From: Mesorhizobium sp.
Lineage (GTDB): Bacteria > Pseudomonadota > Alphaproteobacteria > Rhizobiales > Rhizobiaceae
Direction: 5' to 3'
DNA length: 64,000 nt
NCBI GenBank assembly: GCA_004020545.1
Contig: SAQE01000003.1
Span: forward strand, 186,001 to 250,000
Shown here piece after piece: positions 450 to 34,010 of this stretch (position 1 is its first letter; each line of letters begins with the position of its first letter). The notes under the pieces were generated by a model. That model saw nothing but the letters and a program-made list of their open reading frames with translations. It made no database searches and was not told the DNA's origin. Made by a program: the position numbers and the translations under genes.

Positions 450-1859
450 CTATTCCGCGGCCTGCGCTTGCGCCGGCAGCCCCAGCCATGCCCTGCAGTC
501 AGCAAGAGCCCGTGTCGTGATGGCGTGGCGTTTGGCGATGGTCTTGTCCTTGCCGCGCAGGCGCTTGCCTTCGGCCTTCGGCGCTTCGACCGGCGGAAAC
601 AGGCCGAAATTGACGTTCATCGGCTGGAAGGAGCGTTTTCCGGGCTCGTCGTCGGAAACGATGTGGCCGCCGGTAATGTGGTTGAGCAGCGCGCCGAAGG
701 CGGTGGTCGGCGGCGGCAGCGACGGCGCCTGGCCGAGCCGTTCGGCGGCGGCGAAGCGGCCGGCGAGCAGGCCGATCGCGGCGCTCTCCACATAGCCCTC
801 GCAACCGGTGATTTGCCCGGCGAAGCGCAGGCCCGGCCGTGATTTGACCTGCAGCGACGGATCGAGCAGCGTCGGCGAATTGATGTAGGTGTTGCGGTGC
901 AAGCCGCCGAGGCGCGCGAACTCGGCGTTCTCCAGCCCCGGAATGGTGCGGAAGATGCTCACCTGCTCGGCATGCTTCAGCTTGGTCTGGAAACCGACCA
1001 TGTTGTAGAGCGTGCCCAGCGCATTGTCCTGGCGAAGCTGCACCACCGCATAGGCCTTGACCGATGGGTTGTGGACGTTGGTCAGGCCCATCGGCTTCAT
1101 CGGCCCGTAGCGCAGCGTCTCGACGCCGCGCTCGGCCATCACCTCGATCGGCAGGCAGCCATCGAAATAGGGCGTGCCTTCCCACTGTTTGAACTCGGTT
1201 TTTTGCCCCTCCAGCAGCGCCGCCACGAAAGCGAGGTATTGCTCCTTGTCCATGGGGCAGTTGATGTAGTCCTTGCCGGTGCCGCCGGGGCCTACCTTGT
1301 CGTAGCGCGACTGGAACCATGAGGTGTTCATGTCGATCGTGTCGAAATGCACGATCGGCGCGATCGCGTCGAAGAAAGCGAGCGCATCGGCTCCTGTCGC
1401 CTCGGCGATCGACTGGGCAAGCGAGGGCGCCGTCAGCGGGCCGGTGGCGACGATCGTCTGGTCCCACTCCGCCGGCGGCAGGCCAGGCACTTCCTCGCGG
1501 ACGATGGTGATCAGCGGATGGGCGTCGATCTTCGCGGTGACCGAATCGGAGAAGGCGTCACGGTCGACGGCGAGCGCGCCGCCAGCCGGCACCTGATGCG
1601 CGTCGCCGGCGCTCATGATCAGCGAGCCGGCAAGCCGCATTTCGGCGTGCAGCAGGCCCACGGCATTGGTCTCGGCGTCGTCCGAGCGAAACGAGTTGGA
1701 GCAGACGAGCTCGGCCAGCCCGTCGGTCTTGTGGGCATCGGTGCCGCGCACAGGGCGCATTTCGTGCAGCACGACTGGAACGCCGGCCTCGGCGATTTGC
1801 CATGCGGCTTCGGAGCCGGCGAGGCCGCCGCCGATGACGTGAACGGGATTTTTGCTCAT
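450..1859 (-). CDS. trmFO: Methylenetetrahydrofolate--tRNA-(uracil-5-)-methyltransferase TrmFO
   Basis: A 469-residue protein that makes m5U54 in the T-loop of tRNA using methylene-THF and FAD; it is the folate-dependent alternative to TrmA. The N-terminal [13 protein letters not shown] stretch (residues 7-19) is the FAD-binding Rossmann loop. Cys53 in ELVCSNSF corresponds to one catalytic Cys of the family, and Cys201 in YINCPMD is a candidate for the second. I chose the ATG at 1859 because the protein then begins [12 protein letters not shown], just ahead of the FAD motif. The frame stays open 56 codons further upstream, but that part runs into the hairpin repeats and is not protein-like. 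The gene converges on the desaturase with no intergenic base. Confidence 0.95.
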
Positions 1860-1929
1860 GGGGGCCGGAATAGTCGCTTGGCGCGGCGAATGCAATTGCC
1901 GGCTTGGGCGGGCTGATGCGGCAAGGCCG

Positions 1930-1975
1930 CTCCAAAAACAACAACACCCGCCGGGGGAGGAGGTCCGGCGGGTGT
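1930..1975 (-). terminator. Rho-independent-type terminator ending the DUF1127/sRNA transcript
   Basis: The perfect 11-bp GC-rich stem 1944-1954/1965-1975 is followed on the minus strand by UGUUGUUUUUGG, giving a U-rich tract. It doubles as the third anti-SD hairpin of unit B. The equivalent hairpin of unit A (2101-2130) is followed by UUGUUCUCC, a weaker tract, so read-through from A into B is plausible. Confidence 0.65.
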
Positions 1976-2060
1976 CGTTTTGGGGGTCGATCCTCGGGAG
2001 GAGGTGAAGATCGACCGTATTCGCCATCGCCGGGGAGGAGGTCGGCTTTGACGAAATTCC
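1935..2060 (-). ncRNA. CcsR/cuckoo-type sRNA unit B: three hairpins with anti-SD loops (distal copy)
   Basis: Three stem-loops have the same 10-nt loop, GGGAGGAGGT on the plus strand and ACCUCCUCCC in the minus-strand RNA. The loops are at 2033-2042, 1996-2005 and 1955-1964. The stem at 1944-1954/1965-1975 is a perfect 11 bp; 1985-1995/2006-2016 has one mismatch; 2021-2032/2043-2054 is imperfect (9 of 12). CCUCCUCCC loops behind DUF1127 genes are the hallmark of Rhodobacter CcsR and the alphaproteobacterial cuckoo RNAs, which are stress-induced and cotranscribed with DUF1127. Here the units follow two DUF1127 genes on the same strand. The last hairpin runs into a U-rich 3' end. Strand is inferred from gene context and from the terminator. 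Confidence 0.75.
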
Positions 2061-2085
2061 TTCCGCCAGTTGAAAAGGGGCGGAA
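2061..2085 (-). other. Linker hairpin between sRNA units A and B
   Basis: A 7-bp perfect stem (TTCCGCC at 2061-2067, GGCGGAA at 2079-2085) sits between the two triple-hairpin units and lacks the shared loop. It may be a processing or spacer structure in a long transcript, or the leader of the second unit. Its role is not known. Confidence 0.4.
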
Positions 2086-2095
2086 CCCTTTGGAG

Positions 2096-2220
2096 AACAA
2101 CGCCCGCCGGGGGAGGAGGTCCGGCGGGCGCCGTTTCGGTGGTCAACCCTCGGGAGGAGGTGAGGGTTGGCCGTATCCGTCAGGGTCGGGGAGGAGGTCG
2201 ACCCTGGCGAAATGCCTTGC
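2096..2220 (-). ncRNA. CcsR/cuckoo-type sRNA unit A: three hairpins with anti-SD loops (gene-proximal copy)
   Basis: This is the first copy, starting right after the second DUF1127 stop codon. Loops of identical sequence lie at 2189-2198, 2152-2161 and 2111-2120. The stems are 2181-2188/2199-2206 (perfect), 2141-2151/2162-2172 (one mismatch) and 2101-2110/2121-2130 (perfect 10 bp). Each loop is exactly 156 nt from its counterpart in unit B, so the two units are a tandem duplication. Stem differences between the copies are mostly compensatory: G-C in the 2101 stem is A-T in the 1944 stem, and the 2145 and 2147 positions change together with their partners. This supports selection for the folded RNA. 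A pyrimidine-rich loop could pair with Shine-Dalgarno or other GGAGG sequences. Confidence 0.75.
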
Positions 2221-2361
2221 TTAGACCGCCTTGCGGGCGATCGTCTTGATCTCGTCGCGAACGATACCGAGATCGTGGAGCTGGCGGTTCGAAAGCCGAC
2301 CCAGCTCGGAAACCGTCTCGCGATAAACGCGCCAGTTACGGTAGCTGCGGATCAGGTTCAT
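2221..2361 (-). CDS. DUF1127 domain protein, 46 aa (second of tandem pair)
   Basis: Reading the minus strand from the ATG at 2361 gives [20 protein letters not shown] and ends in the sequence IARKAV, 46 residues in all. The short Arg-rich helix-turn-helix-like layout (NWR.YRET..EL..LSNR.L.DLGI.R) is DUF1127. In Rhodobacter a DUF1127 protein (CcaF1) acts as an RNA-binding factor that affects maturation of the CcsR RNAs encoded behind it. A GAGAAG Shine-Dalgarno lies about 9 nt ahead of the ATG. The stop codon directly borders sRNA unit A. It differs from its twin mainly in the C-terminal half. Confidence 0.9.
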
Positions 2362-2384
2362 TGTCTTACTCTTCTCAAAACTGG

Positions 2385-2406
2385 TTCGGACCATTCGCGG
2401 TCCGAA
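2385..2406 (-). other. Intercistronic hairpin between the two DUF1127 genes
   Basis: A perfect 8-bp stem (TTCGGACC 2385-2392, GGTCCGAA 2399-2406) with a 6-nt loop lies in the 50-nt gap between the two genes. A related GATCCGAAC stretch occurs in the leader of the first gene, so the leader was probably duplicated together with the gene. It could set processing or relative expression. Confidence 0.5.
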
Positions 2407-2411
2407 GCGGA

Positions 2412-2552
2412 TTAGACCGCCTTGCGGGCGACGTAGTGGATGTCGCTGCGGCTGATGCCGAGGTCGGTCAGTTCACGGTTCGACAGGCGGCTCAGCTCGG
2501 AAACGGTTTCCCGGTAGCGGCGCCAGTTGCGGTAGTTGCGGATCAGGTTCAT
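2412..2552 (-). CDS. DUF1127 domain protein, 46 aa (first of tandem pair)
   Basis: The 46-residue protein starts [20 protein letters not shown] and ends YVARKAV. It shares about the first 20 residues and the last five with the second copy, so the pair is a tandem duplication. I used the ATG at 2552 because homologous starts align. The frame stays open 23 codons upstream, but that extension has no counterpart in the twin. The SD is weak. No clear sigma-70 promoter is visible upstream, only a poor RpoH-like candidate (TTGCAC, 14 nt, CCATGC on the minus strand), so regulation by RpoH is expected from relatives rather than shown. Confidence 0.9.
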   Translation of the reverse strand: MNLIRNYRNWRRYRETVSELSRLSNRELTDLGISRSDIHYVARKAV

Positions 2553-2786
2553 GGTAGTGCTCGTTTCGTCTTTAGTTCGGATCATTCCGTTTGTGTACGA
2601 ACAGAAAATAGGTCGGATCATATCAGTTTAAAAGTGTCATTGGCGCATGGCAGCAATGCAAATTGTGCAATGCAACATTAACGACCCTTCACGCTTGCGA
2701 CGCAAAGAAGACCGAATCGGAAAATGCCGCTGCGTCAACGGTTTGGCCCCTGCGGCTAAAAAAATGACCAAGCTTGGGGGAAACGC

Positions 2787-3900
2787 ATGGCGGGCTATGC
2801 GACACGGGTGAGGGCGGATATTGCCCGCTGGCGGGAGGCCGGCCTGATCGATGCGGCGACGGCCGATGCATTGGCGCGCGACGTGGCCGCCAACGAGCGC
2901 ACCTCGCTGAGCTTCGGCTCGATCCTGGCGATGATGGCCGCACTGCTGTTCGGCGCCGCGATCCTCATCTTCGTCGCCGCCAACTGGGAAGCCATTCCGC
3001 GGCTGGCGCGCGTGGCGGCGCTGTTTGCCGTCATCCTCGGCGGCTATGTCGGCGGTGCGCTGCTGAAGACACGCGACCACGCGGCGATCGGCGAGGCGCT
3101 GTGGATCGTCGCTGCCGCGGCCTTCGGCGGATCGATCGCGCTGATCGGCCAGATGTATCACCTGTCGGGCGACGAGGCCGTTGCTGACCTGGTGCGCCGG
3201 CACCGCGCTGGCGGCGGTCGCATTGCGCTCGAACCCCCTCACCGTGGCTGCAGTCGGCATCGCCGATGCCTGGTTGTTCCTCAAATGGGGCGGATTTTTC
3301 CGCCGGGCCGAGTTTCCCTATCTCTTCGCGGCAATTGCGCTCGTGCTGTTCGTCATTTCATTCTGGACACGCAGCCGGGCGGCGCGACACCTGATCATCC
3401 TGTCGATCCTGTTCTATCTCGTGCTGCTGGCGATAGATCACAACACGCTGCAGGTCGCCATTCCGCTCGTGCTCGCCTCGGCGGCGCTGTTCGCGGCTGC
3501 GATCTTCGCCGCGGAACCCGTCGACAGGATCGTGCAACTCGGCGGCCGGCTGCCCTTGCATGCGCTCATCGGCTTTCTCGCCGGCCTGGCGATGGTCCAG
3601 TTCGAACTGGGCGATGAGGCGAGCTACAACAGCGGCTTTGCCATTGCCTCGGCGACCGCGCTTGCCGGCATCGTCGCGGCGATCATGCTGGGCGGCCGTG
3701 AGAGCAGGGGCTTGCGCTGGGTGGCCTATGCCGGCTTCGCCTTCGAACTCGCCATCATCTATGTGGTGATGCTGCAGTCGATGCTCGACACGGCGGGCTT
3801 CTTCCTGTCCGCGGCCGTGCTGCTGGGGATACTGGCGGTGGTCATCATCCGTGTCGAAAAGCGCATGAAGACGCCTGCCGGGGGAGGAGCAGCGGCATGA
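2787..3900 (+). pseudogene. DUF2157 membrane protein, broken by a +1 frameshift near 3180
   Basis: The N-terminal part reads MAGYATRVRADIARWREAGL, then hydrophobic segments up to QMYHLSGDEA, the typical DUF2157 start. At about 3178-3183 the homologous reading jumps by one base into the frame that continues LTWCAGTALAAVALRSNPL and runs through more membrane segments to 3900. Joined, the two frames give a normal-length protein of about 370 aa with roughly ten membrane helices. No slippery heptamer is visible at the junction, so a real one-base insertion or a sequence error is more likely than programmed frameshifting. Its stop overlaps the next start in ATGA, as expected for an intact operon. 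A GGGGGAA Shine-Dalgarno precedes the ATG. Confidence 0.8.
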
Positions 3901-33775: not shown

Positions 33776-34010
33776 AAAGGCGTCTCCCGTAGTCCCACTC
33801 AAAGGTGGGACGAGTTGAACGGACCACGACCTTCGGGTGAAACTCGCCCGGTTTCCAGCCCGCACGCGGCGTGAACAGATGAGCAATGACAATAGCTTGA
33901 GGTCGCCTTGTCGATGCCCGGCTGCGACCATTATATATGGTCGTGCTGAGCGAAAGGAAGACACAACAGCGGCAAACGCTGTTCGCTCGGCGGCGACGGA
34001 TTGGAAAAAT

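Follow-up and report, generated by a model that had tools for sequence, protein, structure and literature searches.

What is a row of six identical loops doing behind two small DUF1127 genes, and what would switch it on? We asked this of a minus-strand locus in a 64-kb stretch of Mesorhizobium DNA (64,000 nucleotides, here called the window). A motif count found six copies of the loop ACCUCCUCCC, all exact, in 2216-1934 of the minus strand, with the offset between the two triplets equal to 156 nt for all three pairs of loops. The motif ACCTCCTCCC had six exact matches in the window, all on the minus strand, against 0.07 expected, and six or more copies were found in 0 of 100 shuffles of the window. 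The initial annotation, which had described six identical loops at fixed offsets, was right on this point. It had also read the region as a structured array of the cuckoo/CcsR type behind DUF1127 genes and had suggested a covariance-model search. With the Rfam model, that search returned two full-length ar14 matches (RF02344; 91.0 and 87.9 bits), each covering model positions 1-123 and each above the gathering score of 58.8. The array is two tandem copies of ar14, the NfeR1/cuckoo sRNA family, and two PF06568 genes lie upstream of it (Table 1). The array RNA folded at -141.1 kcal/mol, compared with -99.4 for shuffles (z, -7.98), and all six loops were unpaired in both the minimum free energy and the centroid structures predicted.

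Table 1. Features of the array and of the genes and control element before it, in the order of the minus strand
Feature	Position	Strand	Basis
LsrB/VtlR-type LysR box	2647..2669	-	TGCA-N6-GCAT 2669-2656, overlapping GCAT-N3-TG-N3-T 2659-2647
Putative sigma70 promoter	2606..2634	-	CTTTTAA (2634-2628), 16 nt, CTATTT (2611-2606)
DUF1127 gene 1, 46 aa	2412..2552	-	PF06568, E 3.2e-17
DUF1127 gene 2, 46 aa	2221..2361	-	PF06568, E 5.8e-15
ar14 unit 1, three hairpins, without U-tract behind	2095..2216	-	RF02344, 91.0 bits; tail TTCTCCAAAGGGTT
Loop 1a ACCUCCUCCC	2189..2198	-	exact motif match
Loop 1b ACCUCCUCCC	2152..2161	-	exact motif match
Loop 1c ACCUCCUCCC	2111..2120	-	exact motif match
ar14 unit 2, three hairpins	1939..2059	-	RF02344, 87.9 bits
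Loop 2a ACCUCCUCCC	2033..2042	-	exact motif match
Loop 2b ACCUCCUCCC	1996..2005	-	exact motif match
Loop 2c ACCUCCUCCC	1955..1964	-	exact motif match
Hairpin 2c and U-tract, likely operon terminator	1934..1979	-	sequence and predicted fold

Several known systems come close to the locus. Like NfeR1/Smr14C2 of S. meliloti, the founder of ar14, each unit consists of three hairpins whose stems vary and whose CCUCCUCCC loops are identical, and an LsrB-type box stands equally far from the start site, which is inferred in the window. NfeR1 differs in having its own promoter and in being repressed by NtrC as well (PMC10746234), whereas the window has two units, two DUF1127 genes, and one terminator. 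CcsR1-4/ccaF1 of R. sphaeroides (cuckoo/CIN1) is described as a DUF1127 gene with a homologous sRNA array and one 3' Rho-independent terminator (PMC10253847), and in the window, too, DUF1127 lies directly upstream on the same strand. The CcsR locus differs in its single 71-aa DUF1127 gene, where the window encodes two 46-aa proteins, and in its reported RpoHI/HII dependence, where the window has an LsrB-type box. CcsR units usually have two hairpins each, and those in the window have three. SmelA075 and SmelA099 of S. meliloti have three and four hairpins, respectively, with CCUCCUCCC-type loops, but the account of them describes single sRNAs and not a six-loop tandem in a DUF1127 operon (PMC3927594). 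AbcR1 and AbcR2 (ar15) are likewise described as LsrB/VtlR-linked sRNAs with anti-Shine-Dalgarno motifs (PMC7143759, PMC7486931) but form a separate family, related to RF00519.

Every one of the 36 same-genus relatives searched had ar14 matches. We took the syntenic region from 35 of them (G024, with one weak match, was left out), which together with the window gave 37 arrays from 36 Mesorhizobium-type genomes, two of the arrays coming from the incomplete assembly G007. Hairpin number and loop conservation, both comparisons proposed in the initial annotation, could be followed across this set. There was one three-hairpin unit in 1 array, two in 25, three in 10, and four in 1. The loops were kept in close relatives: CCUCCUCCC was exact in 251 of the 255 loops expected from the 85 syntenic units, a count to be read with the fact that the model finding the units itself expects the motif. 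The 3+3 layout had been regarded as a specially strengthened device, but it is ordinary because the ar14 model is itself three hairpins and tandem copies are usual in Mesorhizobium. In one four-unit array (L012, from G005), units 2 and 3 were identical over the compared stretch, a sign of an apparently recent duplication. The genome under study carries four ar14 RNAs: the array pair and two single copies, one near a LacI-like regulator (by eye) and the other behind a phasin gene.

Of the 37 syntenic arrays, 33 were used to examine stem pairing, together with three single-unit loci; left out were the loci in which the count of exact loops is not a multiple of three (L015, L028, L032, L034) and 16 loops without a preceding A. 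Standard pairs made up 97.8, 95.2, and 90.4% of the pairs in hairpins 1, 2, and 3, values that 0 of 500 shuffles reached for any hairpin, and fell to 29, 45, and 38%, respectively, when the partner was slid by one base. The stems thus vary yet remain 90 to 98% paired over relatives, as in the ar14 pattern of three hairpins with open loops. Pairs changed on both sides numbered 3, 6, and 3, which was reached in 20, 16, and 240 of 500 shuffles. Further pair types exceeded every shuffle in hairpin 1 and showed no excess in hairpins 2 and 3, where the observed value was reached in 436 and 414 of 500 shuffles. Compensatory change, claimed earlier for the stems, is moderately supported in hairpins 1 and 2 and is not supported in hairpin 3.

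Named genomes contributed at least 120 further loci, each of which has three exact loops or more by definition, and all counts from them describe a sample in which loop conservation is built in. An array was called DUF1127-linked when a gene scored at least 12 bits against an HMM built from 43 relatives' proteins, a threshold that divergent DUF1127 genes may escape. The distance limit was 400 nt for counts of boxes and of PhaR sites and 65 nt for counts of loops and unit edges. The loop and edge counts also exclude arrays with less than 40 nt upstream and seven loci (L054, L099, L134, L158, L162, L163, L166) that are non-alphaproteobacterial or simple repeats, judged by name and spacing. Large arrays appear to go with DUF1127, above all in Rhodobacterales, because among the named loci listed at least five loops were found in 27 of 43 DUF1127-adjacent arrays (range, 2 to 14) versus 7 of 71 others (range, 3 to 7). 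The largest among those listed, in a Loktanella MAG of the Rhodobacterales (L141), has 14 CCUCCUCCC loops behind one DUF1127 gene.

How the loops would act is suggested by precedent. NfeR1 of S. meliloti is reported to pair with translation starts through three redundant CCUCCUCCC motifs, independently of Hfq, and the motif mutant NfeR1abc lost target silencing (PMC10746234). CcsR differs here in its reported interaction with Hfq. By analogy with NfeR1, the six loops of the window would have the same anti-Shine-Dalgarno action. The loop is complementary to a Shine-Dalgarno sequence, and mRNA Shine-Dalgarno sequences, one of the targets named in the initial annotation, are its likely partners on this precedent. 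Six equivalent CCUCCUCCC loops may pair with the purine-rich Shine-Dalgarno regions of several mRNAs and lower their translation, as described for transporter and metabolic genes in S. meliloti, and the copy number of units would set dose rather than specificity.

Candidate targets were scored against the loop. A putative ntrB start (behind a dusB-like gene, with gene and start codon chosen by eye) gave -8.9 kcal/mol, which 33% of random 50-mers equalled, so that this pairing is not special if the chosen start is right. The full 10-nt complement, GGGAGGAGGT-N3-12-ATG, occurred 0 times in the genome, as did its reversed control, and GGAGGAGG-N3-13-ATG occurred at 47 sites, coding ones included, compared with 9 for the reversed control. 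We looked at 30 of the 47 and picked plausible starts by eye. A Pfam search with the first 60 residues of seven candidates (L172, L176, L181, L184, L193, L196, L198) placed PCMT and DUF2585 over the cut-off; matches to a periplasmic binding protein and to GFO_IDH stayed below it, and three had no match. Seven starts (L197 replacing L172) paired with the loop at -17.0 to -19.5 kcal/mol, as at most 1% of random 50-mers did. These pairings are circular because the starts were chosen for their Shine-Dalgarno sequence, and they show only that targets are possible.

Rows of identical loops would also suit titration, in which the loops bind an RNA-binding protein (DUF1127 or another) and mRNA pairing is secondary. 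The DUF1127 protein CcaF1 of R. sphaeroides is described as binding RNA and acting in CcsR maturation (PMC10253847), and the loop numbers given above reach higher in DUF1127-adjacent arrays than in others. We consider titration unlikely, nonetheless, given the complementarity of the loop to Shine-Dalgarno sequences, the loss of silencing in NfeR1abc, the failure to find CsrA in this genome, and the report that short DUF1127 proteins of Agrobacterium act by protein contacts with PhoR (PMC12501420). By analogy, the DUF1127 proteins of the window may either serve RNA maturation, like CcaF1, or make PhoR contacts as in Agrobacterium; pairing of the loops with mRNAs remains the reading that we prefer.

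The layout of the locus points to a single transcript. A U-tract, TTGTTGTTTTT, at 1944-1934 stands behind the second unit only, as the initial annotation had held in assigning a private terminator to the last hairpin. The gene downstream of the array belongs to the GidA family (PF01134) and is presumably trmFO. The relatives showed the same trend, with a mean of 6.3 T in the 14-nt tail after 36 last units versus 2.7 after 43 internal units (L015, L028, L032, and L034 again omitted); four of the 36 last units are single-unit loci, and three have just 2 to 4 T in the tail. A pattern scan of 1400-3200 listed no terminator with its loop range of 3 to 8 nt (the array loops are 10 nt) and no sigma70-like promoter with its TTGACA/TATAAT consensus. 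Because the U-tract as a rule follows the last unit only, the two DUF1127 genes most likely share one transcript, with the array as its 3' UTR, which would later be cut into sRNAs. Unit 1 would be read through, and transcription would end only at the U-tract behind unit 2.

Most units are also preceded by a recognizable edge. The AU-rich pattern [AT]TTT[CT]G (AUUUCG-like) precedes 73 of 79 units, compared with 1.6% of background windows. Among the named arrays listed, it was found in 12 of 43 DUF1127-adjacent ones versus 0 of 71 others, the exact pattern being absent in the remaining 31 of 43. Maturation of CcsR in R. sphaeroides is reported to involve RNase E and CcaF1 (PMC10253847, PMC8625941). 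By this analogy the edge is suggestive of an RNase E-type site, and a cut at AUUUCG before each unit would release 120-nt three-hairpin sRNAs. Alternatively, structure may be what conserves AUUUCG, which shares bases with the foot of hairpin 1.

The sequence before DUF1127 gene 1, TGCATTGCACAATTTGCATTGCTGCCATG, carries two overlapping patterns: TGCA-N6-GCAT, required by LsrB at the NfeR1 promoter according to EMSA (PMC10746234), and GCAT-N3-TG-N3-T, described as the VtlR box (PMC7486931). Both patterns occurred in all 37 syntenic arrays. In 36 of the 37 loci, a CTAT or CTTAT element followed at 57 to 58 nt, counted from where the box begins, and the spacer was 15 to 16 in 35 of 37. This element places the box centre at about -65 from the inferred start site, near the -66 expected of the regulon; for comparison, the NfeR1 promoter is given as CTTAGAC-N17-CTATAT with the LsrB motif at -72 to -60 (PMC10746234). 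It is important to note that the bare TGCA-N6-GCAT predicts nothing by itself because there are 296 such sites genome-wide (reversed control, 66); the argument rests on where the box stands and on its conservation. The longer TGCA-N6-GCAT-N-GC-N-GC occurs at 9 genome sites (reversed control, 2), of which 2 precede DUF1127 genes. Another DUF1127 gene of the genome (L200, C112:14674) has a box in front and no CCTCCTCC loops within 3 kb. Two further long-box sites (L207 and L208; C150:14114 and C177:62721) are AT-rich and non-coding by eye.

The box recurs outside the genus. Among the named arrays listed, with those having less than 500 nt upstream excluded, the 600 nt upstream contained it in 37 of 49 DUF1127-linked arrays (12 were without it) and in 11 of 67 others, a group that still contains the seven loci set aside above; the background is 0.015 per 600 nt. 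Six of the 49 are Mesorhizobium, at least two of them matching records of the genus set, and without this genus the count was 31 of 43, Rhodobacterales included. Two boxes, always 39 to 40 nt apart, preceded 10 of the 49 listed arrays; eight of these ten are Rhodobacterales (named or placed there), and two are named just Alphaproteobacteria or Pseudomonadota. The 14-loop array of L141 has two boxes, 39 nt apart, upstream. The exact box was missing upstream of five single ar14 copies, two in the genome under study (L005, L006) and three in relatives (L014, L021, L046). The latter three have a degenerate element ending in GCAA or GCAATG, 96 nt before loop 1. Five four-loop arrays in Rhizobium-type genomes (L062, L079, L139, L148, L164) have the box 84 to 85 nt before loop 1, about the distance in NfeR1, and in L062 and L164 there is a DUF1127 gene ~200 nt upstream as well. 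The control site, conserved and shared with a second bacterial order, may be new: in the accessible part of the open-licence literature on LsrB/VtlR with cuckoo or CcsR arrays, we recognised no paper linking the two. Heat induction had been expected from Rhodobacter, but an LsrB/VtlR-type box would fit redox or nitrogen stress better.

The two units might instead be NfeR1 paralogues with a promoter each, DUF1127 being a mere neighbour. NfeR1 of S. meliloti is described as having its own promoter (PMC10746234), and single-unit ar14 copies exist elsewhere in the genome. This arrangement is quite improbable here: only 4 nt separate the stop of DUF1127 gene 2 from unit 1, internal units have no U-tract, and the conserved box and CTAT element precede DUF1127 gene 1 rather than the sRNA directly; in 36 of 37 arrays, TGCA-N6-GCAT has no second occurrence from -600 to +700 of loop 1. 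For promoters within the DUF1127 genes, the search was a generic TTGACA/TATAAT scan only.

Nor do we give much credence to PhaR, the PHB-state regulator, as the protein that reads the upstream element, alone or with LsrB, which would tie the array to carbon storage. Sequence alone separates LsrB from PhaR poorly because their patterns overlap: the stretch TGCATTGCACAA (2674-2663), which shares positions with the box, is a match to the PhaR consensus of Bradyrhizobium, TGCRNYGCASMA (PMC6201568). Every one of the 37 syntenic arrays matched this consensus, as did the three single ar14 loci from relatives described above, whose LsrB box is inexact, and 11 of 43 listed DUF1127-linked arrays outside Mesorhizobium (~0.03 expected); one ar14 copy lies behind a phasin gene whose promoter also fits it. 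Against PhaR, the LsrB box is far commoner outside the genus (31 versus 11 of the 43 listed), the promoter geometry matches NfeR1, and VtlR is the described DUF1127 activator in Brucella (PMC12595884). The phasin-linked copy (L006, C125:21700-24000; 575-1210) has its first loop 92 nt from the stop of the phasin gene (PF09361), and a gene 76 to 91% identical to this phasin precedes an ar14-type array in eight named loci (L066, L067, L070, L082, L102, L128, L130, L152). A CsrA sponge, floated in the initial annotation, is not supported because no CsrA gene was found in the genome (PF02599, 0 matches; the control matched 3 of 14 genomes), and the loops read ACCUCCUCCC without GGA, the motif that CsrA recognizes in loops.

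This genome encodes a candidate regulator: directly behind trxB is an LsrB-type LysR gene, the gene order given for lsrB (PMC11975290). In Brucella, DUF1127 genes are reported to be regulated primarily by VtlR (PMC12595884), which fits LsrB here. When 20 other genomes, chosen among array-bearing ones, were searched with the LysR protein, all 20 had exactly one match at an E value of ≤1e-60, a threshold that hides weaker paralogues. In Phyllobacterium, Agrobacterium, Labrenzia, and Devosia, the homologue was 55 to 75% identical and adjoined trxB in 4 of 4. All 16 Rhodobacterales-type genomes (L217-L232; one named just Alphaproteobacteria) had a homologue with 38 to 44% identity, and trxB was found in the ~1.5-kb flanks of 0 of 16. 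Just behind the LysR gene, TGCA-N6-GCAT was present in 9 of these 16 genomes, in two on the opposite strand only. A SorX- or SorY-like sRNA lay beside the LysR gene in 8 of the 8 loci, out of the 16, given to Rfam; the SorX cut-off was passed in 6 of 8 and the SorY cut-off in 0 of 8. The Rhodobacterales homologue is likely orthologous to LsrB. Homologues in 16 of 16 such genomes conflict with a regulator confined to Rhizobiales, LsrB having been called unique to that order (PMC11975290). RF00519 (AbcR-like) had one match over the cut-off in the genome under study (L168) and one below it, and the TGCA-N6-GCAT box was absent from the 3.1 kb around L168.

An LsrB-activated operon that releases NfeR1-like sRNAs is probably the best explanation of the locus. 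An LsrB/VtlR-type LysR regulator would activate one sigma70 promoter near 2600 on the minus strand, and one transcript would carry the two small DUF1127 proteins and a 3' UTR of two ar14/NfeR1-type units. A broader reading is more tentative, and we hold it to be possible rather than likely: the DUF1127-cuckoo operon may be an ancient target of a single LysR regulator, LsrB/VtlR, in both Rhizobiales and Rhodobacterales. In the latter order, the homologue would often read a box pair 39 to 40 nt apart before the operon and a box before SorX/SorY-type sRNAs by its own gene. Under redox or nitrogen stress, loop number (2 to 14) would set a tunable brake on strong-Shine-Dalgarno mRNAs, and the DUF1127 protein would act as a dedicated partner, in maturation or as a chaperone.

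By itself the array changes little because both the RNA family and its association with DUF1127 have already been published. The array type is in print (PMC3927594; PMC7143759), and we recognised no report of tandem ar14 in Mesorhizobium in the accessible part of the open-licence literature. What the conserved box adds is a link from DUF1127-cuckoo loci in two orders to a single regulator type; it also makes testable what turns the arrays on and why loop number ranges from 2 to 14. Elsewhere in the window, a THF-II riboswitch (RF02977, 62.3 bits) at 33784-33822 on the minus strand, apparently before folE (by eye), is an ordinary one.
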